From positions 1 through 25,428 of the IMG/VR virus record IMGVR_UViG_3300044225_000906: a stretch of DNA of 25,428 bases, one strand, 5' to 3'. Below, in pieces: positions 9,529 to 25,428 of the stretch; position 1 is the first letter of the stretch; every line of letters starts with the position of its first letter. Source of the stretch: a virus. The translations under genes were made by a program, and so were the position numbers. The notes beneath the pieces were generated by a model. That model was not told the DNA's origin. It did no database searches and was given only the letters and a program-made list of their open reading frames with translations.

Positions 9529-10050
9529 TTAGTTAGGTGCGATTTGTGTAGCACTTGCTGATATTACTCCAGCATCTACAAAAAACGGTGCTTTTTCCTC
9601 TTGGCCTTCAAAAACCAAAGTAAAGCCAGATAAATCTCCAGCTGCAGCACCAGTAACTATTGTGCCACCTGTACACTCTACCCCATTTTCAACACCACAT
9701 AATAATTGGTTACCATAATAATCTTCTACCACTAAGTGTGGATTACTAACAGCAAGTAATTGAATTTCTTCTTTAGTTGCATTTTCTAAATATGTTAGTG
9801 TTAGATTTAATGTTTGTGCGTAAAATGTTGAACCATTTTCTCTTGAACTATTAATAGCGACTTCCAAAGATGAATTACCTTTTACATCGAATTTAAACCA
9901 AGCAGGTGAACCTGAAAAAGCAGAAATAGTTTTATCTGCATCATAGGTTACCGTACCCAGCGTGCCAAAATCGGCAAAATAGACAGCTTTTATACCACCA
10001 AACCCCGTTTTACACGGTAATTTTCTTCCTGTTGTTAAATTACAAGCCAT
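9529..10050 (-). CDS. Probable major tail (tube) protein
   Basis: A 173-aa protein, beta-rich and low in charge, beginning with GRKLPCKTGFGGIKAVYFADFG and carrying INSSRENGSTFYAQTLNLTLTYL around residues 66-88 and VTGAAAGDLSGFTLVFEG near 132-149. This combination matches a family I recall in Bacteroidetes phages that behaves as an abundant structural protein, most plausibly the tail tube. It follows the capsid gene and is isolated by a terminator on each side, which suits a high-copy structural protein. An alternative is a capsid decoration protein, and the sequence alone does not exclude it. Confidence 0.55.
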   Translation of the reverse strand: MACNLTTGRKLPCKTGFGGIKAVYFADFGTLGTVTYDADKTISAFSGSPAWFKFDVKGNSSLEVAINSSRENGSTFYAQTLNLTLTYLENATKEEIQLLAVSNPHLVVEDYYGNQLLCGVENGVECTGGTIVTGAAAGDLSGFTLVFEGQEEKAPFFVDAGVISASATQIAPN

Positions 10051-10066
10051 AATTATTTATTTTTTT

Positions 10067-10098
10067 AAAAAAAAAGGTAGGTAGTCAAACCACCTACC
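10067..10098 (-). terminator. Rho-independent terminator after major capsid gene
   Basis: On the minus strand GGTAGGTGGT pairs with ACTACCTACC (10 bp including one G-T) across a TTG loop, followed by nine T residues. Arms are 10089-10098 and 10076-10085. It is the strongest hairpin in the window and directly follows the capsid stop. Confidence 0.9.
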
Positions 10099-10126
10099 CT
10101 TTTATGTTACACATTATTTTATGTTA

Positions 10127-11074
10127 TTATGCTAAAGTTAAAAGCACTAAATCGCTTCCGATTCCATACTGTACACCAGCTGTGAATCTCATAACAACTC
10201 TCACGTTTTGACTTCCGTCTATGTCTGCCATATCAATTAACTTTACTTCGTTAAAATCTGATACTAAACCAGTTCCAAAATAAAGATTTGATTTTTGACC
10301 AGCAACTGCGTGGTCAGCAGGCATTCCTGGGCAATTAATCACTTGAATTCCTTCAAATGAAAGTGCGTTACCCATACTGTACCATTGTGAACCTTTATCC
10401 TCAAAACCTGCAGCACCTAAACCACTTGCACCAAAACCACCAAGACTTCTAATATATGCTTGGTATGCAGTTGGGTTTACATAGATTGCTACATCTTCTT
10501 TACCATAAACACCACTTGGAAGACCATCAACGATATTTCCTAAAAGTGTTGCGATATTAGATGATGAAAAAGATGTTTGTGAGCCATTAGAAGCGTCAAC
10601 AACATCTGAATCTGCAGCCATTAAAACTGTTAATCCATCAAATTCTCCTGCGTTAGCATTAACACCACCCCAAATATTTTGTTCGTTCTTTTCTGCTACT
10701 AATCCTGCTACGTGCGAGATTAAGAAATCAGAAAATTTAGGTGGCATATTATGAAATGCAGAGTAACCCATCTCAATTGCTTCCCAATCAGAGATGAAAT
10801 CTTTTTTACATAATTCTAAATTTACTTGGAATTCTTCTGGTTGTAGAATTCTTTCTGTTAATGTTACCGAAGCTGTATCTGCAAAATCACAAGAAGCATT
10901 TTTGATAACATTTGCGTCTGTTGCAACTTTTTTGATTACATCTTTGTACTTAACATTTGGTTTAATTGTAATGTTACCATTATCTAATGTAGGAGAACTT
11001 AGGAGGGCAGCAGATATATACTTACCCGAAAACTCACCTGCATATGTACTTGTTATACTTACTGTAGTCGCCAT
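10127..11074 (-). CDS. Major capsid protein (HK97-like fold)
   Basis: A 315-aa protein of normal length for a small HK97-type coat subunit. It has Gly/Ala/Ser-rich sequence, an early LSSPTLDNGNITIKPNVKYK segment, the long helix-like stretch EEFQVNLELCKKDFISDWEA, VAIYVNPTAYQAYIRSLGG near residues 195-213 (P-domain-like), and a C-terminal beta segment (NVRVVMRFTAGVQYGIGSDL). These match the capsid family of Bacteroidetes phages as I recall it. The upstream neighbours are scaffold-like and protease genes, the standard assembly set. A strong terminator follows. The leader before the ATG is a run of TAAA/AAAT repeats, typical of Bacteroidetes initiation sites without Shine-Dalgarno. Confidence 0.8.
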   Translation of the reverse strand: MATTVSITSTYAGEFSGKYISAALLSSPTLDNGNITIKPNVKYKDVIKKVATDANVIKNASCDFADTASVTLTERILQPEEFQVNLELCKKDFISDWEAIEMGYSAFHNMPPKFSDFLISHVAGLVAEKNEQNIWGGVNANAGEFDGLTVLMAADSDVVDASNGSQTSFSSSNIATLLGNIVDGLPSGVYGKEDVAIYVNPTAYQAYIRSLGGFGASGLGAAGFEDKGSQWYSMGNALSFEGIQVINCPGMPADHAVAGQKSNLYFGTGLVSDFNEVKLIDMADIDGSQNVRVVMRFTAGVQYGIGSDLVLLTLA

Positions 11075-11919: not shown

Positions 11920-12774
11920 TTAGTCAATCGGTACACAATTTGGTACCTTTTTACCATTTTTCATTTTAAATCCAATCATTTCATATCCAGCCCAACAAGG
12001 TGCTTTTAATTCGTGTGATTCACAAGGCATATACCAAACTTGATTTTCAAATTCGTGTTCGTGTGAACCACTACAACCAATATCTTCTGCGATTTGCTCT
12101 GCTTTTTCTTTTGAAGCATAAGCAAGTCTATCATCAATTACAGCAAAATTTTCATCTATAACCATACTGGCTAAATCGACACCACTAACAATATTTTCTA
12201 TTTGTTTTAATAATGCTTTGGATAATCCTTCTACTGAATATTTTCTTTTTTGTTTTTTCATTTCCATTTTGTCTGCAAAATAACCCTCAATACTAAAGCC
12301 TTTGACTTTTCCACTTTTTACATATTCATTCCAAACTTCGTCATTATTTACTTTTACTGAACCCATCCAAGTACCAACAGGCACATCAAAACCATATTTT
12401 GCTGATTTATCGTGCTTTTTATCTTCTACAATCCAACTTTCCACCAATGTTAATCCATTTATTTCGTGTTGGTGTTCTAGTGTTGAATTACTTTGGTTAT
12501 TATTTTGTAAATAAAGCTGACTTGCTTTTTCAACTGTTTCTCTGCTAAAATAAATATAGTAATCCTCATCCTCTTGTGTTCTAAAGATTGGTTTATTTGG
12601 TATTAATAGTGGACCCATTAATATCTTTTTTTCTTTATTTATTTCTGCTAATTTTAATTCCTCTGATTTTAAAGCAATAAAATCTTTTTCAATTGCTGGA
12701 CTTTCCACAATAGATATTGCGTCAACACCCATCACATTTTTTGCTTCATCAAGTATTAATTCTACAATTCTCAT
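11920..12774 (-). CDS. XkdF-like prohead serine protease with C-terminal Cys domain
   Basis: A 284-aa protein. Residues ~1-170 match the phage XkdF / Peptidase S78_2 type: FRTQEDEDYYIYFSRETVEKAS, then HQHEINGL with candidate catalytic His101/His103, VESWIVEDKK at 111-120, the PVGTWMGSVKV loop at 132-142 and VKGFSIEGYF with candidate Ser161. This enzyme class processes scaffold and capsid during head maturation. After residue ~175 there is an additional region ending in CSGSHEHEFENQVWYMPCESH and PNCVPID, with four spaced cysteines and several histidines. I recall this tail on other phage proteases; it may bind metal. The gene precedes scaffold and capsid, in the usual order. Confidence 0.8.
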   Translation of the reverse strand: MRIVELILDEAKNVMGVDAISIVESPAIEKDFIALKSEELKLAEINKEKKILMGPLLIPNKPIFRTQEDEDYYIYFSRETVEKASQLYLQNNNQSNSTLEHQHEINGLTLVESWIVEDKKHDKSAKYGFDVPVGTWMGSVKVNNDEVWNEYVKSGKVKGFSIEGYFADKMEMKKQKRKYSVEGLSKALLKQIENIVSGVDLASMVIDENFAVIDDRLAYASKEKAEQIAEDIGCSGSHEHEFENQVWYMPCESHELKAPCWAGYEMIGFKMKNGKKVPNCVPID

Positions 12775-12808: not shown

Positions 12809-14644
12809 TTATATTGACGCACCATCAATAATATTTCTTTCCAAACCTTGTGCTGTTGTAACATCATTGCTAACAACAAATGCTTGTACAGGTTGTTGCG
12901 ACTGTCCACCTATTGCATCAGCTAACTGATTTATTCCACTTGCACCTACTGTATTTATATCTGGTAATACAGGTGGTGGTGGAGCAGATGGCGTTGATGG
13001 TGCACTTGCACCTCGACCGCTTCCCCCTTTTGCAAAACTTGGTGCTGGTGGTGGTTTTTTACTTGTTATAGTTTTCACATTGGCGATACCTGAAGCTATT
13101 ACTGCTGCAGCACCTATGAATCCAAATAAACCACCTTGTGCTAAAGCTTTATTTGCACCAACATAAGTATCTATAATTGCTTGTGTTACTGCTATTGCTT
13201 TTCCAAATTTAGAATTTTCTCCAACGATACTTGCAATATTTCCAAGCGCACCCTGTACTTGTGCTACCTTAGCCTCTGATAAACCTTTTTCAATTTTCTT
13301 TTGCTCGTTGGCATTCGCTTGTTGATAATCTAATAATTCATTATTTGCGTCAATATATGCCTGTGTACCCTCTTTAAATGTATTTCTTTTTTCTGTTAAT
13401 CTTTTTTCCTCTTCTTCTCTTTCTGTTTGTAAATTATCCAAAGTCATTTGTAATCTCTTGACTTCGTTTTGTTCCATCTCTACATTAAAATCTCTTTGTG
13501 CTTGTTGTCTTAATGCAGTTGCTTCATCTCTTGACAATTGTAAAGCGTCTGATTCTTTTTCTAATGCAACTAAATTTGATTTTTGTTCTGATAATTGTCC
13601 TTCAATTTGTGCTGCAATAGCCTTTTTTTCGTTTTGTGCTTCTAATACGGCTATATAATCCTCATCTGCACCTGTTAATTCGTATTGTGCCTGTGCATTT
13701 GCTAATACAGCATCGGCATTTTCCATCATAACTTCTTTTTGTTCAGTTAAGATTTCCAATAATTTATTATTAGCTTCCTGTCTTTCAGCTATACTTAATC
13801 TATCATCATCTCGTAATTGTCTTTGTTGTTCTGCTTGTCTATCGTATTCCTCAATTAACCCTTGATTTGCTACACGAGCAATATCTGCTGACTTTTTAAG
13901 TTGTACGTTTGTCTGTGCTGTTTCAAAAGCAGTTTTAACACTTACCTCTCCTAACTCTTTTACAACTGTTTTACCAATATCTGATACTTCTGATACTGCT
14001 TCACCAATATTTGTTACAATATCAACTCCTGATTTTACTGCACTTACACCAATTTCAATAGTTTCTTCTTTTATTGTTTCTAGTTCAGCTTGTAATTCTT
14101 TGATTCTGCCTGGGTCATTACCACCAAAAAATGATTTTTCCCAAGCTAATTGTGCACCTACTATTGTAGCTTTTATTCCATTAAATGCTAATTTAAATGG
14201 TGTTACAGCTATATTTAGTACACCTTTCATAACCTTACCAAGTGCGTCAAAATTATCACTGCTTGATGCTACACTTTTACCAATATCTATTAATGCACCA
14301 AATACTTGATTAAATACAATTTGTGCTGTTTCAAAACCTACTCGTAAACCATCTAATACTTCTTGGTTTCTACCTATTGCTTCTTGTACAAATTCAAACC
14401 CTTTTTGTAAAACTGTTAAAACAACTGCAGCCCCAGCAATATTTTTTAATGTTAATCCTACTTTTTTAACACCTTTTGCTGAATTTTCTGCTGTTTTTTC
14501 TACATCTTTTAATGATTCCTCTGTTTTTTTATTAGCAGATTGTACTTCTTTTTGTAGTTCTTCGTATTTTTTAGTTAAATCGTCTAAACCTTTTAAAGCT
14601 TCTTTATATTTTAATTCAAAATTTACCTCTACACTTTGTGCCAT
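12809..14644 (-). CDS. Tail tape measure protein
   Basis: A 611-aa protein made of long coiled coils (about 15-60 and 230-480, Glu/Gln/Lys/Ala-rich), a hydrophobic stretch near 70-80 (IAGAAVVLTVLQ), a hydrophobic Gly/Ala segment near 510-530 (FGFIGAAAVIASGIANV), then a Pro/Ser/Gly-rich linker and the closing AFVVSNDVTTAQGLERNIID, which I recall at the end of Bacteroidetes phage tape measures. Such proteins set tail length and help DNA entry. By the usual 1.5 angstrom per residue rule this predicts a tail of about 90 nm. The start overlaps a 42-aa ORF as TAATG. Confidence 0.85.
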   Translation of the reverse strand: MAQSVEVNFELKYKEALKGLDDLTKKYEELQKEVQSANKKTEESLKDVEKTAENSAKGVKKVGLTLKNIAGAAVVLTVLQKGFEFVQEAIGRNQEVLDGLRVGFETAQIVFNQVFGALIDIGKSVASSSDNFDALGKVMKGVLNIAVTPFKLAFNGIKATIVGAQLAWEKSFFGGNDPGRIKELQAELETIKEETIEIGVSAVKSGVDIVTNIGEAVSEVSDIGKTVVKELGEVSVKTAFETAQTNVQLKKSADIARVANQGLIEEYDRQAEQQRQLRDDDRLSIAERQEANNKLLEILTEQKEVMMENADAVLANAQAQYELTGADEDYIAVLEAQNEKKAIAAQIEGQLSEQKSNLVALEKESDALQLSRDEATALRQQAQRDFNVEMEQNEVKRLQMTLDNLQTEREEEEKRLTEKRNTFKEGTQAYIDANNELLDYQQANANEQKKIEKGLSEAKVAQVQGALGNIASIVGENSKFGKAIAVTQAIIDTYVGANKALAQGGLFGFIGAAAVIASGIANVKTITSKKPPPAPSFAKGGSGRGASAPSTPSAPPPPVLPDINTVGASGINQLADAIGGQSQQPVQAFVVSNDVTTAQGLERNIIDGASI

Positions 14645-17984: not shown

Positions 17985-18542
17985 CTATTTATTTTGTCCG
18001 TATAAAAAATTGTTTTCTATGTCTAAAGAAATTGCTTCTGTAAATTTTTGTGAAAATCTTTTTAATGCCTTATTATATGGTTCAGTAAAAAACATTGTAG
18101 CTTTTATACCTGATAGATAAATACTTCTTGTAATTAAATACTGCATTGTTTTACGACTTAAAAATCTACCTTTGTCATCTCTAACTCCCTTTAGGTTTTT
18201 TTGTACAGTCCATCTGTTTATTGCTTTACGCAAACCCTTGCTTTTCATACTACCAAATTTATATGGACTTTTTGGTGCTTTTTGTGTACCAAACCATTTT
18301 GCACCTTGTGGTAATTGATTTGGATTTTTTCCTTTAACACCTTGGTCTACAAATTTACCATAGTCTTCCATTAAAAATTCTACCAAAAATGCGTCCTTTT
18401 CTTGTATTATATTTGCGTCAATAGAATCATATAATTTACCAGAACTTTTTTTATCAGCTTCTACTAATTTTTTTCTTGCTTCTCTGATAACATAGTCAGA
18501 AAACTTTTTTAATTCTTTTTCTAATTCCTCAAACCTTAACAT
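17985..18542 (-). CDS. HK97 gp10-like head-tail connector / tail completion protein
   Basis: A 185-aa basic protein. The signature is EDYGKFVDQGVKGK at residues 59-72, the central element of the HK97-gp10-like family, preceded by two helices (KFSDYVIREARKKLVEAD, KSSGKLYDSIDANI) and followed by the basic SPYKFGSMKSKGLRKAI. The family includes neck or tail completion proteins that join head and tail. The C-terminal half is longer than in the shortest members. It overlaps the preceding tail-terminator-like gene by 7 bases and sits next to it, the normal gp10 and tail-terminator pairing in siphoviruses. Confidence 0.75.
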   Translation of the reverse strand: MLRFEELEKELKKFSDYVIREARKKLVEADKKSSGKLYDSIDANIIQEKDAFLVEFLMEDYGKFVDQGVKGKNPNQLPQGAKWFGTQKAPKSPYKFGSMKSKGLRKAINRWTVQKNLKGVRDDKGRFLSRKTMQYLITRSIYLSGIKATMFFTEPYNKALKRFSQKFTEAISLDIENNFLYGQNK

Positions 18543-19006
18543 ATTGATATATCGTTTCTAATTGTTATATCCATTGTAACAGACCAACCTGCTAACTGAT
18601 TTTCAAACCTATCAACAAATGGTTCTGCATTTGGTTGTCCGTCTAATTGGTATCCACTTGTATGTAAATCCCCTCTACTTAATAATTGTATTAATTCATT
18701 AACAACAGATAATTGTGTGTTTAATATATCTTGATGGTTGTCGTTACCTCTAAAAATATCTATTGTTTCTGCTTTAGAATCATTTACAATATCCATCGCC
18801 ATTACACTTACATTAAAAGTCAAAGTTTGTTCTCCTATAACTACATTGTTTACCAATATATGTGCAAGTGGAAAAATATTTTGTTTTCGTAAATTAACTT
18901 GTGATATATCTCCAGATGTAACTTCATTGACATTTGCATCTTTTAATAATTGGTCTTTTAATGTGTTTGTAACTAAATAATAACCTCTGATTCCTGTATT
19001 GCTCAT
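18536..19006 (-). CDS. Tail-terminator-like protein
   Basis: A 156-aa protein with TNTLKDQLLKDANVNEVTSGDI, a helix then a beta strand with FPLAHILVNNVVIGEQTLTF, and a long acidic helix (ILNTQLSVVNELIQLLSRG). Alternating helix-strand layout and a position next to the gp10-like gene resemble the tail terminator or neck Tc1-like family; I recall close relatives in Bacteroidetes phages without functional data. Its ATG overlaps the TGA of the frameshifted chaperone frame (ATGA). Function is inferred from position. Confidence 0.6.
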   Translation of the reverse strand: MSNTGIRGYYLVTNTLKDQLLKDANVNEVTSGDISQVNLRKQNIFPLAHILVNNVVIGEQTLTFNVSVMAMDIVNDSKAETIDIFRGNDNHQDILNTQLSVVNELIQLLSRGDLHTSGYQLDGQPNAEPFVDRFENQLAGWSVTMDITIRNDISIC

Positions 19007-19317
19007 TTAAAATTTCTTTTTATTTGTGTTGATTCCAATTCTTGTTTTTCTTTCATAAATGTTAGCATCATTAAACATTCGTGTAACTCTAATTTAGTGA
19101 TATTTTGGAATTTTGTAATATCTCCTCCAGCGAGTGCATAAATTGATTGATACCATCCCCATTTCCTATTGAAGATAGATAAGCCGTCAAGTCCTCTCTC
19201 TGATGACTGTCCAAATAGTTCGTCATAACTTTCGACAAGTCCAGTCCTAAACGAAAAAAAAAACTTATAGAACCAAGAACTACATTCATTGGCATATCTA
19301 ACATTTTGTCTTTTGTA
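19003..19317 (-). CDS. -1-frame extension of tail assembly chaperone, no own start codon
   Basis: This open frame lies -1 relative to the preceding 216-aa frame and runs from just after a stop at 19318-19320 to TGA at 19005-19003. There is no ATG, GTG or TTG before its conserved part. It encodes RKWGWYQSIYALAGGDITKF and then TKLELHECLMMLTFMKEKQE, a pattern I recognise from proteins of Bacteroidetes phages. The zero-frame reading of the same DNA (GNGDGINQFMHSLEEILQ) is lower in coherence. Its stop overlaps the next gene's ATG as ATGA, the local coupling style. I infer it is translated as the C-terminus of a 245-aa frameshift product, similar in logic to lambda G/GT. Confidence 0.7.
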   Translation of the reverse strand, partial: YKRQNVRYANECSSWFYKFFFSFRTGLVESYDELFGQSSERGLDGLSIFNRKWGWYQSIYALAGGDITKFQNITKLELHECLMMLTFMKEKQELESTQIKRNFK

Positions 19318-19739
19318 TCAGTTTTATAATCTTTTATAAGATACTTTTCTCCAACTTGTGATTTAATTGGTCTGTATAACACATTCATTGCTACGTGCAT
19401 ATTTTGCCAATCGTTTATATAAGAATCCAAATCAATATATTCTCCAAAAGTCATATTTTCCAAGTCTGGTATAAAGCCATAGTTTGTACCATTCATTGTA
19501 AAATTTCTAATAAGTTTGCTTTGTTTGTCAAACATATTATTAATGATATTGGAAATTTTTGTTACATCTCCAACTTTCATTAACCTTACTGTTTTACCAT
19601 CTAAATTGCAAAATATTTCTATCAGCTTACATTGTAAAAAATAAGGGTCGTCATTGTTTTCCTGTATTTTTAAATATTTCTGATATTGTCCTAAAGTTAT
19701 TTCACTTAACTTATTTGGAACTTTTAAATTTGCTTTCAT
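19089..19739 (-). CDS. Tail assembly chaperone-like protein, zero-frame product
   Basis: A 216-aa reading frame from ATG 19739. Residues 1 to ~162 (KLSEITLGQYQKYLKIQENN, IEIFCNLDG, FIPDLENMTFGEYIDLDSYI, NVVLGSISFFF) look like a genuine helical protein family seen before tail genes in Bacteroidetes phages. After a T10 tract at 19254-19263 the zero frame continues to a stop at 19089, but the -1 frame carries the recognisable sequence. The gene probably makes both a 216-aa protein and a 245-aa -1 frameshift product, as tail chaperones often do. It is the first gene after a terminator. Confidence 0.65.
   Translation of the reverse strand: MKANLKVPNKLSEITLGQYQKYLKIQENNDDPYFLQCKLIEIFCNLDGKTVRLMKVGDVTKISNIINNMFDKQSKLIRNFTMNGTNYGFIPDLENMTFGEYIDLDSYINDWQNMHVAMNVLYRPIKSQVGEKYLIKDYKTDTKDKMLDMPMNVVLGSISFFFRLGLDLSKVMTNYLDSHQREDLTAYLSSIGNGDGINQFMHSLEEILQNSKISLN
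19254..19263 (-). other. T10 slippery tract, candidate -1 ribosomal frameshift site
   Basis: Ten consecutive T residues on the coding strand at codons Ser159-Phe160-Phe161-Phe162. The tract contains the T TTT TTT form of a slippery heptamer and lies upstream of the -1 frame encoding the conserved C-terminus. A sequencing or assembly indel in the homopolymer would give the same picture. Confidence 0.6.
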
Positions 19740-20890: not shown

Positions 20891-22054
20891 TTATTGTATG
20901 ATGTATTTACCAAAGTTTGGTCTGCTTAAAATACTATATGTTGCGTAACGACAGGGGTCGATAATATGATTATGTTTATCCTCTGGTATATTGGTTAGCC
21001 TACCCGTTCTATCCTCTGTCCATTTATAGTTTCTAAATTCTTGTATGGCATTATTGCTTGTGGTTAATATATGTATCTTGTATCGCTTTAATAAATCAAT
21101 TCCTGCATTAACTGAATCCTTACCTTTCATACTTGGAAATATATTGTGCCCCATACTTCTTAATTCTGTAATCAATCTTGGCTCGGCACTATCTGCGTAT
21201 ATTGGATTTCTATCTAATTGTTGTTCCAATAAAAATAAGTGTATGTCTCTTGTTGTCATCTGTGTTCTATATAAATACTCTCGTATATATAAGTTGTATT
21301 CTAATGTATAAACAGCAACCAATGTTGTAGGGTCGTTGGTAAATCCAAAATCCATTCCGTACGCTAATAATTTAGCTTCCTCTGGTATTTGTTGTATTTC
21401 AATGTAATTAAATATTGTTGCCCTACTTGCTGCCCTTTCCCCTAAACCATATATCTGCCAATATTGTTCGTCTGTATCTCTTAACCTTTCTATTTCTTTT
21501 ATAATTGCTTTCTCTATAAATGGATTGTCTTTGTAGGTTGTTTTAAAAAAATCACAATCGCTTCTTGGTATTACTTTGTCATATATCCAATGATACTCGT
21601 CTGATGGATTAAAATCAATAACAATACGTTCTTTGGTTCTAAATACAAGTTGTTGCCAATCCTCAAAATATAATTCGTTGGCTTCATTTATAAATAATAG
21701 ATTTCTTTTCCTACCTCTAATCTTCTGTGCTTGGTCTAATGCTATAAATTCTATTAAATTACCAAACAGATTATATTCAGAGTTGGATTTATTATGGTAC
21801 AATTCGGAATACATATTGTTGTTTACCAATATCTCCATAAAATCCCTTAATACTGTAGCTCTTAAACTTGGAAACGATTTACGACAAATTGTGATTATTT
21901 TTTTCTTGTTATTGGCACAATAGTCAAATATAATCCACATAAGAATATTGTAGGTTTTCCCTGACCTTGTACCACCTTGCTCAACTACTATTTTTTTATC
22001 ACTATTGGCTAAGTGCTTATAAACTATATTAGTCTGTATCTTTTGTTTTATCAA
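20891..22054 (-). CDS. terL: Terminase large subunit (packaging ATPase and nuclease)
   Basis: A 387-aa motor protein. The ATPase half has Walker A GGTRSGKT (27-34), Walker B LLFINEAN (119-126, catalytic Glu124) and the coupling-like IDFNPSDEYHW (146-156). The nuclease half has three acidic residues: Asp235 in GMDFGFTNDPTT, Asp288 in IYADSAEPRL and Asp366 in HIIDPCRYA. All motifs are intact. No ATG precedes Walker A, so the start is most likely TTG at 22054, inside the small subunit gene, which is a 26-base overlap. The family is PBSX/Terminase_3-like by sequence style. It packages DNA into the prohead through the portal encoded at 7141-8985. Confidence 0.92.
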   Translation of the reverse strand: MIKQKIQTNIVYKHLANSDKKIVVEQGGTRSGKTYNILMWIIFDYCANNKKKIITICRKSFPSLRATVLRDFMEILVNNNMYSELYHNKSNSEYNLFGNLIEFIALDQAQKIRGRKRNLLFINEANELYFEDWQQLVFRTKERIVIDFNPSDEYHWIYDKVIPRSDCDFFKTTYKDNPFIEKAIIKEIERLRDTDEQYWQIYGLGERAASRATIFNYIEIQQIPEEAKLLAYGMDFGFTNDPTTLVAVYTLEYNLYIREYLYRTQMTTRDIHLFLLEQQLDRNPIYADSAEPRLITELRSMGHNIFPSMKGKDSVNAGIDLLKRYKIHILTTSNNAIQEFRNYKWTEDRTGRLTNIPEDKHNHIIDPCRYATYSILSRPNFGKYIIQ

Positions 22055-22388
22055 TTATCTCTATTTGAAAGTTATTAGGCATTCCGTCTGCACCTGTAAT
22101 TTCTGTCCTTTCAATGTAACCTCTGTGCTTTCCTTTTGTCTTTAGATAAAACATAGTTGAACTTGGTATTCCTTTACCTATTTGTTGGTGCAGTTGGCTT
22201 TCTGCAAAATCAAGTGCTACATTTTCAATGTCCTTTACCTTTTTAGCAAAATCATCATCCTCACTTAACCATTTATAAAATGTGCTTCTTGGTACTTTTG
22301 CTTTTTTACAAGCCATTGTTACAACACCTAAACTTTGTTCAAGTGCTTTTAAAATACTTTCCTTTTTTATGTGTCTACTTTTGTCCAT
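22029..22388 (-). CDS. terS: Terminase small subunit (HTH, phBC6A51-like)
   Basis: A 119-aa protein from ATG 22388 (a TTG three bases earlier is less likely). Residues ~10-41 form a helix-turn-helix (ESILKALEQSLGVVTMACKK then VPRSTFYKWLSEDDDF). This is followed by a helical stretch with VALDFAESQLHQQIGKGIPS and TMFYLKTKGKHRGY, typical of phage small terminases of the phBC6A51 type. It binds packaging DNA and recruits the large subunit, which starts inside this gene's 3' end. Its start overlaps the epimerase stop by 14 bases, linking the sugar cluster and packaging in one transcript. Confidence 0.85.
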   Translation of the reverse strand: MDKSRHIKKESILKALEQSLGVVTMACKKAKVPRSTFYKWLSEDDDFAKKVKDIENVALDFAESQLHQQIGKGIPSSTMFYLKTKGKHRGYIERTEITGADGMPNNFQIEIIDKTKDTD

Positions 22389-23205
22389 CAATATATTTTT
22401 TTAAATCATATTTAATTTCCCAATTCAGTATTTCCTTTGTGGCATTTACCATTGTTATTGCGTGTTCTCTCTCTCCTTTTCTTCTCGGTACAAAAACAAT
22501 ATCATCTGTAAACATCTTTGCAACCTCTAATATACTATAACTTTTATCGCTACTTAAATACCATTCTTTATTACTGTTTTGCCTTAGTATTTTATATAAC
22601 GCAATAATTATGTCGTTTATGTGTGTGAATTGTCTGGTCTGTGTTCCATCTCCAACAACTGTTAGTGATTTACCTTCTTTGTATTGCTTTTCAAACTTTG
22701 CAATAACTGTTGCATAATCACCTGTTGCAATATGGTTTTTACCATAAACATTATAAAAATAACAAATCTCATATTGTAAATTAAACCACTTATTGTAGTT
22801 TTTTATTAATTCTACCATTTTTGCTTTAACCCAAGAATATGGAGACAAATCTTCGTTGCCACCAAACTTACTACTAGAAGCAGAATAAATTAATTTACAT
22901 TTCCATACTTTACACAATTCTATTATCCTTGTTGTGCCTTGTAAATTAGTTCGTAAAACATAAGCAATATCTTTAAATGATGGTACAACTCTGGAATATT
23001 CTCCAAAATGGAAAACCAAATCTTGTCTTTCAATATCCAAATCCCAAGTATCGCACTTTATATATTTAACTCCTTTAATGTGATTTTTTTCTGTGCCTGT
23101 AAAATAATTATCTACTGATGTTATTTTTGCCGAAGTGTTTTTTTTTAAATATGCAATAAGGTTACTGCCTATAAAACCTGCACCACCTGTTACTAATATT
23201 TTCAT
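22375..23205 (-). CDS. NAD-dependent epimerase/dehydratase (extended SDR, GalE-like)
   Basis: A 276-aa Rossmann enzyme. The cofactor motif GGAGFIG is at 7-13, Asp32 in VDNYFTG suggests NAD preference, and the catalytic set is Ser108-Ser112 in SASSSKFGG plus Tyr123/Lys127 in PYSWVKAKM. VVGDGTQTRQFTHINDI is the family's C-terminal substrate-side motif. It probably changes a nucleotide-linked sugar (UDP- or dTDP-sugar 4-epimerisation or dehydration). It is slightly shorter than the usual 310-340 residues. Coupled directly after the TAGT-like glycosyltransferase (4-base ATGA overlap), it likely supplies or tailors that enzyme's donor sugar. Confidence 0.85.
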   Translation of the reverse strand: MKILVTGGAGFIGSNLIAYLKKNTSAKITSVDNYFTGTEKNHIKGVKYIKCDTWDLDIERQDLVFHFGEYSRVVPSFKDIAYVLRTNLQGTTRIIELCKVWKCKLIYSASSSKFGGNEDLSPYSWVKAKMVELIKNYNKWFNLQYEICYFYNVYGKNHIATGDYATVIAKFEKQYKEGKSLTVVGDGTQTRQFTHINDIIIALYKILRQNSNKEWYLSSDKSYSILEVAKMFTDDIVFVPRRKGEREHAITMVNATKEILNWEIKYDLKKYIDGQK

Positions 23206-24086
23206 TTGTGTTTATTATAAAATTTTTTTAATTCTTTATTTTTTATTTTATTTAGTTTTTTAAGTTTTATGTCTTGTTTTTTATTTTTAATTTTTTCCCA
23301 ATCAATATCTTTTCTGCGTTTTAATGGATGTTTAAATTGCATCCAATTAATTATGTGATGTGGTCTGTCATATCTTATTTTGGTTTCAACATACTGTGGC
23401 CAAACTTCTTCCAAACTTCTTGTCTTTAAAAACTTTTTTTCTTGCGCATTATCTTTGTATAATTCTGTTTGGTTACCACCTTTCATCTTTGCAACGGTAC
23501 TTGTTTTATCAACTGTAAATGCATTAAATAAAACTGTACATAATTTATTGTGTAACACTTGCAAACAAATATCTACATCCTCATTATACTTTAATCTCCA
23601 TTTATAAGGCATATTGTTTTTAATTAACATAGCAGAATAGGCGTGTACATTTAACCTAAATGGAATGTTATCTGATGTTCCGGGTACTACAAAACTTGTA
23701 TAATTAAATCCTGTAATTGCAATATTTTCGTATCTATCTGTAAATTCCTCTAGTATCTTTATTGCTTTTAATCCATTACATTGTATTTTTTTACCCTGTG
23801 TTATTCTTCTTATTTTTCTAATATTATCATCAAATACCCAATGCCTTTCGTGTTTATTTTTTTGGCTGTGTTCCCAACAAAAATTTCTTGCAGGATATGA
23901 GCCAATACCTAAATTGGAAAATGGTAGTTTTAAAACATATTTTTTACCTACTGATTTACAATAATTTTCATATTCTTGTGGCTCAACAACTATTTTAAAA
24001 TCAACTCCATCTTTTTTAAAAAAATTTGCTGTTAATGGGTGTTCCCATCTACCTTTTGATACAATATAAACAGGGTATTTATTCAT
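23202..24086 (-). CDS. TET-associated glycosyltransferase-like (TAGT-like)
   Basis: A 294-aa GT-A type enzyme. The N-terminus YPVYIVSKGRWEHPLTANFF, then VVEPQEYENY, LPFSNLGIGSYPARNFCWEH at 55-74 and RHWVFDDNIRKIRRI (metal-binding DDN at 86-88), and KYNEDVDICLQVL at 166-178, match the TAGT family as I know it from phages. That family was described in association with TET/JBP oxygenases and sugar modification of oxidised DNA bases. No TET/JBP gene is in this window. The C-terminal ~45 residues are very basic (KRRKDIDWEKIKNKKQDIKL...), consistent with nucleic-acid binding. Coupled to the epimerase and overlapped by the other glycosyltransferase. Confidence 0.75.
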   Translation of the reverse strand: MNKYPVYIVSKGRWEHPLTANFFKKDGVDFKIVVEPQEYENYCKSVGKKYVLKLPFSNLGIGSYPARNFCWEHSQKNKHERHWVFDDNIRKIRRITQGKKIQCNGLKAIKILEEFTDRYENIAITGFNYTSFVVPGTSDNIPFRLNVHAYSAMLIKNNMPYKWRLKYNEDVDICLQVLHNKLCTVLFNAFTVDKTSTVAKMKGGNQTELYKDNAQEKKFLKTRSLEEVWPQYVETKIRYDRPHHIINWMQFKHPLKRRKDIDWEKIKNKKQDIKLKKLNKIKNKELKKFYNKHK

Positions 24087-24999
24087 TTAATAAAATGTGT
24101 TTCCAATTTTTACCTAAAATAAATTCTGCTTCTTTAGCCAATAATGTTTCGTCAGGTAAATTAATCCAAAAATCTTTTTCTTTTTTTTCTGACTTTGTAA
24201 ATGTACTTTCAAAAAAATGTTGTACAACAAAACTTTCATTTAATATTTTTTCAATGCTTGGTAATTTATAGCCAAATAATTCTGTTTTATTATTGAATTT
24301 AGTTGGTTTTTGTATTGAATAACATTTGTTTTTTCCAAGCCAAGCTGGTACTGGACAAAAATATATTGGCTCATATACTTTATAATTTTTATCTTTTTTC
24401 ATAATTTCTTTTATGTTCCAAATTACAAAATTCCAATTTGTTTTTTTAGGTTTTAATAATTTATGCATAATTATATGAGATAAATTTTCAATATATTTTG
24501 ACATACTTTTATTTACTTTCACAGGAAATGCTGCCAATTCTTTACCATCCCAACTTTTATCGTGTATTGTTAACGGGGGGTGGCTTTTCCCCCATTTAGG
24601 TGCAACACCACCACTTTTTTTTGCAGGCATACTCGCAAACCAACCGCTTTGTTCTGGTAATTTTTTTAATACAATAGCATCAAAATCTATAACAACTCCA
24701 TTTACTTGACTTGCGTATTTTAGTCTTATAGCATCAGAAATGTGTGCGATACTGTGTCCGCTTTTTAAAATTTCATAAGCAATATTTGTAGGTATATATT
24801 GATTGGCATTTTTAATAGTTACATTTTTAGGTAAATGTGTTACTATTTTTTGATACGTAAATAATATTACTTTATTATTTAATTTTTTGTGTGCTTTTAA
24901 TACAAGTTTATGAAGTATGGATAAATTTATATTTTTATTTATAAATTCATTATAAGACATTTTGTTGTCATATTCAGACCAAAATAATATGTATTCCAT
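24079..24999 (-). CDS. DXD-motif glycosyltransferase (GT32-like sugar-binding region)
   Basis: A 306-aa protein. Residues 85-115, AHISDAIRLKYASQVNG then VVIDFDAIVLKKLP with Asp105-x-Asp107, form the nucleotide-sugar and metal-binding core of the Gly_transf_sug (GT32-like) class. The rest is Lys/Asn/aromatic-rich with a Trp/Phe-rich C-terminus. No membrane helix is visible, so it is likely cytoplasmic. It transfers a sugar to an unknown acceptor. In the cluster with a TAGT-like enzyme and an epimerase it may elongate the same glycan. It begins on the ParB-like stop as TAATG and overlaps the next gene by 8 bases. Confidence 0.7.
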   Translation of the reverse strand: MEYILFWSEYDNKMSYNEFINKNINLSILHKLVLKAHKKLNNKVILFTYQKIVTHLPKNVTIKNANQYIPTNIAYEILKSGHSIAHISDAIRLKYASQVNGVVIDFDAIVLKKLPEQSGWFASMPAKKSGGVAPKWGKSHPPLTIHDKSWDGKELAAFPVKVNKSMSKYIENLSHIIMHKLLKPKKTNWNFVIWNIKEIMKKDKNYKVYEPIYFCPVPAWLGKNKCYSIQKPTKFNNKTELFGYKLPSIEKILNESFVVQHFFESTFTKSEKKEKDFWINLPDETLLAKEAEFILGKNWKHILLNE

Positions 25000-25428
25000 T
25001 ATTCATATTTTAAGCTGTTTAAATCTTGTTTTTCCTTAAATGGATAACTTGTACTCCAAGCTTTTTTACCTTGTATGGAAAATTTCATATTATGTTTTTC
25101 AGCAAATTCTTGTCTCAATTCTTCTGTTGCAAATGCTATAATAATTTTAATGTCTTTTTCACTTGCTTCAAATTCTGGCATTCCTACCCATTCAGAAAAC
25201 TCATCTCCTTTATTTATCATCTCAATATTATCATCTGTATTTTGCCAAACATCTAAACCCCAATCATCCAAGTCTGTAGTTTTCCATTCGTTGCCTAAAA
25301 TGTCCCAATCCCAATCTCCAAAATTTACATTATCCTTTACAATAAATTCTTCTTTTTGTTTATCTGTTAAATCTTCTATTTTATCTACATATACTTCTTT
25401 AAGACCTGCGTCAATACAAGCTTTATTC
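24999..25428 (-). CDS. ParB-like domain phage protein, N-terminus beyond window
   Basis: The open frame continues past the right edge; Met at 25271 is internal, so this is a 5'-truncated gene with 142 residues visible. It starts NKACIDAGLKEVYVDKIEDL, then TDKQKEEFIVKDNVNFGDWD and WDILGNEW, the second half of phage ParB-like domains, followed by a linker with WVGMPEFE and a small C-terminal beta-alpha domain (KIIIAFATEELRQEFAEKHN) I recall with such proteins. The N-terminal CTP/nuclease motifs are off-window. Such proteins are found near terminases and base-modification genes. A DNA methyltransferase fusion is absent at this end. Confidence 0.75.
   Translation of the reverse strand, partial: NKACIDAGLKEVYVDKIEDLTDKQKEEFIVKDNVNFGDWDWDILGNEWKTTDLDDWGLDVWQNTDDNIEMINKGDEFSEWVGMPEFEASEKDIKIIIAFATEELRQEFAEKHNMKFSIQGKKAWSTSYPFKEKQDLNSLKYE

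Follow-up and report, generated by a model that had tools for sequence, protein, structure and literature searches.

In the 25,428-base IMG/VR virus record analysed here (the whole stretch is called the window), a minus-strand gene of the late module carries a T10 tract at which its expression almost certainly changes reading frame. Conservation shows this to be one recoded gene with two predicted functional products, of 216 aa and 245 aa, that share a 161-aa N-terminal domain. The explanation that best accounts for the whole, to which we assign a probability of about 0.55, is that RNA polymerase slips at a T9/T10 tract and that the two products would resemble lambda G and GT. The parts of the gene are laid out as follows.

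19089–19739, minus strand: 0-frame open reading frame of 216 aa (common N-terminal domain and 0-frame tail), from the ATG at 19739 to the stop at 19089
19257–19739, minus strand: common N-terminal region of 161 codons, present in both products (fusion reconstruction and AlphaFold2 model)
19254–19263, minus strand: T10 tract, the putative slippage site (U10 in the mRNA, A10 on the plus strand; from the sequence)
19263–19257 and 19260–19254, minus strand: two in-phase U_UUU_UUU registers (from the reading of the tract)
19003–19257, minus strand: −1-frame C-terminal domain, 84 codons plus the TGA at 19005–19003, with a KWGWY motif (sequence and alignment)
19089–19256, minus strand: 0-frame tail behind the tract, its first ~6 codons (LGxDLS) constrained jointly with the −1 frame and the rest differing in length among lineages
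19247–19249, minus strand: TAG in the +1 frame immediately past the tract (from the sequence)

The codons at the tract read AGT TTT TTT TTT CGT, and the −1 frame stays open from a point ahead of T10 as far as its TGA, which forms an ‘ATGA’ overlap with the next gene's ATG at 19006. In the window sequence, the −1 frame contains no ATG, GTG or TTG between its upstream stop and KWGWYQSIYALAGGDI, and none ahead of the KWGWY motif. Joining the 161 common codons to the 84 codons of the −1 frame gives the 245-aa fusion product, whose C-terminal domain is missed by ordinary ORF calls in the window. The AlphaFold2 model of the N-terminal region is confident up to a helix at residues 151–175 that crosses the tract, so both frames are predicted to extend one helix with different sequences.

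A preliminary description of this DNA, made from its letters, had proposed a −1 frameshift in a tail chaperone. On re-reading the sequence, we found that it had placed the gene and the T10 run correctly, that its product sizes of 216 and 245 aa hold, and that the −1-frame region indeed has no start of its own and ends in the ATGA overlap. Its statement that the tract contains no classic heptamer was mistaken: U_UUU_UUU is a standard slippery heptamer and is in phase in both registers.

Conservation of the tract and of both frames

Loci were gathered from IMG/VR, GTDB genomes and cultured phages with N-domain and C-domain queries, and those long enough to judge numbered 408, corresponding to 327 distinct genes (104 clusters at 70% identity, 25 at 50%). 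In all 408 loci the longest run at the junction was T9 or T10 and the C domain lay in the −1 frame; T9 was present in 218 of the 327 distinct genes and T10 in 109, none of the 327 had a T7 or T8 tract, and a fused single-frame version was found in none of the 408 loci of the clade. Every tract surveyed contained an in-phase U_UUU_UUU. The seed of the last search was placed ~70 residues upstream of the tract, which kept the resulting loci from being selected for the tract, and T9/T10 with the −1 offset was again found in 79 of 79. These counts strongly support the earlier suggestion that the gene uses two frames and shifts functionally between them at the T tract, as every close relative keeps the T run and offsets the C-terminal frame by −1, and independent assemblies carry the same tract length, with no run that would join the frames.

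The set spans the cultured Nonlabens phages P12024L/S (~29% identity), Flavobacterium sp. MFBS3-15 and freshwater contigs, and phrog_32199 was matched by 55 of 55 members scanned. Searches of Bacteroidota genomes gave few matches, and an N-domain query (L229) against viral_contigs gave none. Annotation splits or truncates the recoded gene: in P12024L/S, GenBank lists it as two hypothetical ORFs (_40 and _41 in P12024L).

Synonymous change was assessed in 40 roughly independent codon-aligned pairs, and the tract showed 0 synonymous differences out of 154. In the −1 frame, synonymous change was 0.058 over the first 19 codons past the tract, 0.09–0.12 further on and 0.144 beyond the 0-frame stop, and in the N region it was 0.18–0.33. 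The suppression falls on the 0-frame motif LGxDL, of which both L residues and the G are invariant in an 18-sequence alignment; in a wider alignment of 55 sequences the first L is invariant and the second at least 90% conserved. The F and R immediately behind the tract in the −1 frame are nearly invariant. The position of the 0-frame stop differs between branches, and the openness of the 0-frame tail beyond about 20 codons, a weak test, departs only mildly from chance in each sequence (median P 0.12 in the 50–60-codon class). In every informative locus the +1 frame closes at most 21 nt past the tract, in part a consequence of TTTAGG encoding LG and FR; because it closes at once, transcripts in this frame would yield the N part only.

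These data bear on three explanations that do without recoding at the tract. Homopolymers are error-prone, and the occurrence of an N-domain homologue and a C-like region within one ORF in distant Duneviridae phages would suit a fixed frameshift mutation in a formerly single-frame gene; nevertheless, T9/T10 and the same offset recur in all the loci, including cultured phages, with both frames conserved, and the recurrence of identical tracts across independent assemblies rules out an assembly error. The universal −1 offset refutes assembly error and pseudogene for the clade, and we regard the probability of an assembly error, a pseudogene or such a mutation as negligible. That the C part is a separate overlapping gene with its own start is suggested by the two ORFs annotated in P12024L, where an internal ATG exists in the C part. 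In the window, however, no start codon precedes the motif, and conservation of the −1 frame sets in at the tract, the near-invariant F and R lying upstream of the P12024L start; the separate gene was therefore rejected as very unlikely. Long homopolymers are capable of phase variation in phages as in bacteria, and this general knowledge speaks for a contingency locus, in which the length of the DNA tract would toggle the fusion on and off. Yet the fused frame occurs in 0 of 408 loci, and lengths 9 and 10 occur only with a compensating phase, which keeps the offset always at −1; phase variation was rejected on both counts and is extremely unlikely. Recoding at the T tract is nearly certain.

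Polymerase or ribosome slippage

To separate run length from heptamer, we let u and d denote the numbers of Ts before and after an in-phase heptamer. The sum u+d is at least 2 without exception, and u and d each change often (parsimony 14 and 16). Among the clusters at 70% identity, u=2 in five of the five with d=0 (background 6/99; Fisher 5e-6) and d is at least 2 in three of the three with u=0 (p 0.013), and 0 of 200,000 permutations kept every u+d at 2 or more; these p-values are optimistic because independent changes are few (~4 for d=0, ~3 for u=0) and the clusters are less than fully independent. Some of the flanking Ts are dictated by amino-acid constraints. It appears that total run length (at least nine), not the heptamer, is what selection keeps, and that the flanks compensate each other.

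As background, a further 397 ORFs from these contigs (278 kb) were used, with expectations from synonymous shuffling. Runs of at least nine Ts were absent from them (0 seen against 8.6±2.1 expected), a depletion that could also stem from replication slippage. In T7 runs, in-phase U_UUU_UUU was seen 29 times against 40.2 expected, and out-of-phase T7 11 times against 20.6, so that the in-phase heptamer is not specially avoided. Shuffle z-scores gave no downstream RNA structure (mean z +0.1 against −0.5 in the control), RNAalifold found 0 consensus pairs near the tract, and SD-like elements were not enriched (8.3% against 9.2%). Of the features of ribosomal shift sites, the in-phase X_XXY_YYZ heptamer is present, and a downstream structure or upstream SD-like element, usual there though not universal, is not; a feature of programmed transcriptional slippage sites, an unbroken and conserved stretch of about nine or more A/T whose length is under selection, is found. 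In many bacterial genomes, selection against A/T runs sets in at a length of nine (PMC1088944), and the RNA polymerase of E. coli slips at ~5–10% on T7/T8, with a preference for poly(T) (PMC6260861).

The conserved length, the depletion of T runs of at least nine elsewhere and the lack of a structural or SD-like stimulator together favour the polymerase over the ribosome, and, granted that the recoding is real, transcriptional slippage is predicted from the sequence with modest confidence. Of the −1 frameshift in the preliminary description, the shift into the −1 frame is upheld, and its ribosomal sense is not the better-supported one.

Tail chaperone frameshifting is a textbook case of ribosomal recoding, and programmed −1 ribosomal frameshifting on the U_UUU_UUU in the tract, with the long run only boosting efficiency or adding registers, is the main alternative. 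Any T9 run contains an in-phase U_UUU_UUU, as all tracts here do, and a ribosomal shift is consequently physically possible everywhere. Tail chaperones of other phages use, or are proposed to use, U-run heptamers for ribosomal shifts (P2 T6G, Smp131 T7G, SPP1 UUUUUUC; PMC3931495, PMC6316719), P2-like phages and SPP1 managing with only six or seven Ts, and the lambda G/GT shift is ribosomal (PMC5009743). Against this reading, T7 and T8 never occur among the distinct genes although seven Ts suffice for the heptamer, the compensation between flanks keeps the total at nine or more, neither a downstream structure nor an SD-like element accompanies the site, and other genes show no special avoidance of in-phase heptamers, whereas T runs of at least nine are absent there. 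We therefore consider a ribosomal shift a possible, but somewhat doubtful, explanation.

In the mechanism that we propose, with polymerase slippage as its core, the T9/T10 tract would be the switch between the two products. RNA polymerase would slip on the tract, so that some mRNAs would gain one U (or lose two); the slipped mRNAs would be translated normally into the −1 frame, giving the 245-aa fusion, and +1-frame transcripts would terminate translation at once. The product ratio would be set by the length of the tract, held at 9–10. The N domain would serve as an abundant tail chaperone, as lambda gpG does, and the N–C fusion as a minor form coupling the tape measure to the tail tube, as lambda gpGT does. 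For the wider statement, that a large Bacteroidota phage clade sets the ratio of two tail-assembly proteins by polymerase slippage and not by ribosomal frameshift, we consider the odds to be even.

Gene neighbourhood and a probable tail-chaperone role

The genes around the recoded gene that bear on its function are given below.

20891–22054, minus strand: terminase large subunit, upstream and in the same direction (synteny with Nonlabens phages)
18536–19006, minus strand: next gene, phrog_30964, whose start codon overlaps the −1 stop; the same neighbour is found in Nonlabens phage P12024L (PHROG match)
17985–18542, minus strand: phrog_29822 gene, whose P12024L orthologue also matches phrog_5 (tail completion or Neck1) (PHROG match)
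12809–14644, minus strand: tape measure protein, with four genes between it and the recoded gene

The late module runs in a conserved order from the terminase through the recoded gene, phrog_30964, phrog_29822 and distal genes to the tape measure, and the order is the same in P12024L. The recoded gene, ending at 19003, does not immediately precede the tape measure gene, as a gene of the G/GT type would. Some members give weak hits to phrog_166, ‘tail protein’ (best 1.8e-4), and a BFVD match (E 0.021, probability 0.98, low TM) was obtained to a protein annotated as a tail assembly chaperone. No chaperone match for the products of the recoded gene was found in Pfam, NCBIfam or PDB, searches of solved structures with the 0-frame product returned nothing usable, and Foldseek with the C domain returned no PDB chain. 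The two-product arrangement of the G/GT type, a common N part with a frame-shifted C extension, is present by sequence conservation. Gene order and the two-product design argue that the gene probably works like the lambda G/GT tail assembly chaperone; the role named in the preliminary description is plausible on these grounds, and comparison by sequence and by solved structure found no match to an established family of chaperones.

The lambda G/GT, P2 E/E', SPP1 gp17.5/17.5* and HK97-type systems likewise combine a common N part with a −1-frame C-terminal extension, and the likeness extends to a stop that overlaps or lies near the next gene, a place in the late tail module and an expected fixed ratio of two products. 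In contrast to the short heptamer of varied sequence in these systems, the gene described here has T9–T10 without exception. Its C domain begins in the middle of the last N-domain helix, its 0-frame tail is long, four genes separate it from the tape measure, similarity in sequence or solved structure is not detectable, and the polymerase rather than the ribosome probably slips. With the transcriptional-slippage genes (Thermus dnaX with A9, Shigella spa13/mxiE, IS elements with A9/T9) it shares a selected A/T run of at least nine, no need for a stimulatory RNA structure and a quick stop in one alternative frame. It differs from them as a phage tail-module gene with U9–U10 whose useful product is the −1 fusion and whose conservation spans a large phage clade.

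Two-product tail chaperones and transcriptional slippage are each already known. Our literature search, which covered few subscription papers, found no described phage tail chaperone with transcriptional slippage and no tail-module gene of a phage with a T9–T10 site whose length is conserved throughout a clade. If the proposed mechanism is true, two different machines arrived at the same solution for a two-product ratio, and hundreds of natural T9/T10 sites would be at hand for studying RNA polymerase slippage in Bacteroidota.

Distant homologues and other features of the window

Proteins of ~270–300 aa from Duneviridae and Bacteroides phage BT-TP2 (phrog_25418) show homology to the N domain (hhalign probability 95.7%, E 1e-8, to A7), with a similar neighbourhood (portal, adaptor ... 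tape measure) and a C-like region at the end. They differ in being encoded by one continuous ORF with no T9 tract, and the homology of the Duneviridae C-like region to the C domain of the clade was not significant by alignment. In Cellulophaga phage Ingeline, the Duneviridae homologue lies upstream of the tape measure gene, from which two genes separate it.

In Flavobacterium phage 6H (KC959568) the gene at 10047–10927 is broken, and the 6H sequence departs from that of 2A within a short segment, the net difference being two bases. Since the relatives 2A, laban6-1 and Ingeline have a single ORF, 6H was rejected as a split case and probably reflects a sequence error or a local rearrangement. 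In BFVD, uncultured-phage proteins of 226–280 aa (A0A516L5A8, A0A6J7WDG4, A0A6J5N0W0 and others) match the N and C models in one chain; they may represent single-frame genes or homopolymer assembly errors. Every fetched locus of the recoded clade had the two-frame layout.

Elsewhere in the window, T9 on the plus strand at 23138–23146 corresponds to A9 on the coding strand of a sugar-epimerase-like gene (22375–23205). Runs of at least nine As are depleted in ORFs of the same contigs (13 seen against 37 expected), which makes this A9 a second possible slippage site. The gene belongs to a stretch (22375–25271) of sugar-epimerase and glycosyltransferase-like genes, as judged by their translations, that lies upstream of the terminase in the same orientation. 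At 11920–12774, the window encodes an XkdF-like protease (Peptidase_S78_2) with a C-terminal match to DUF3721.
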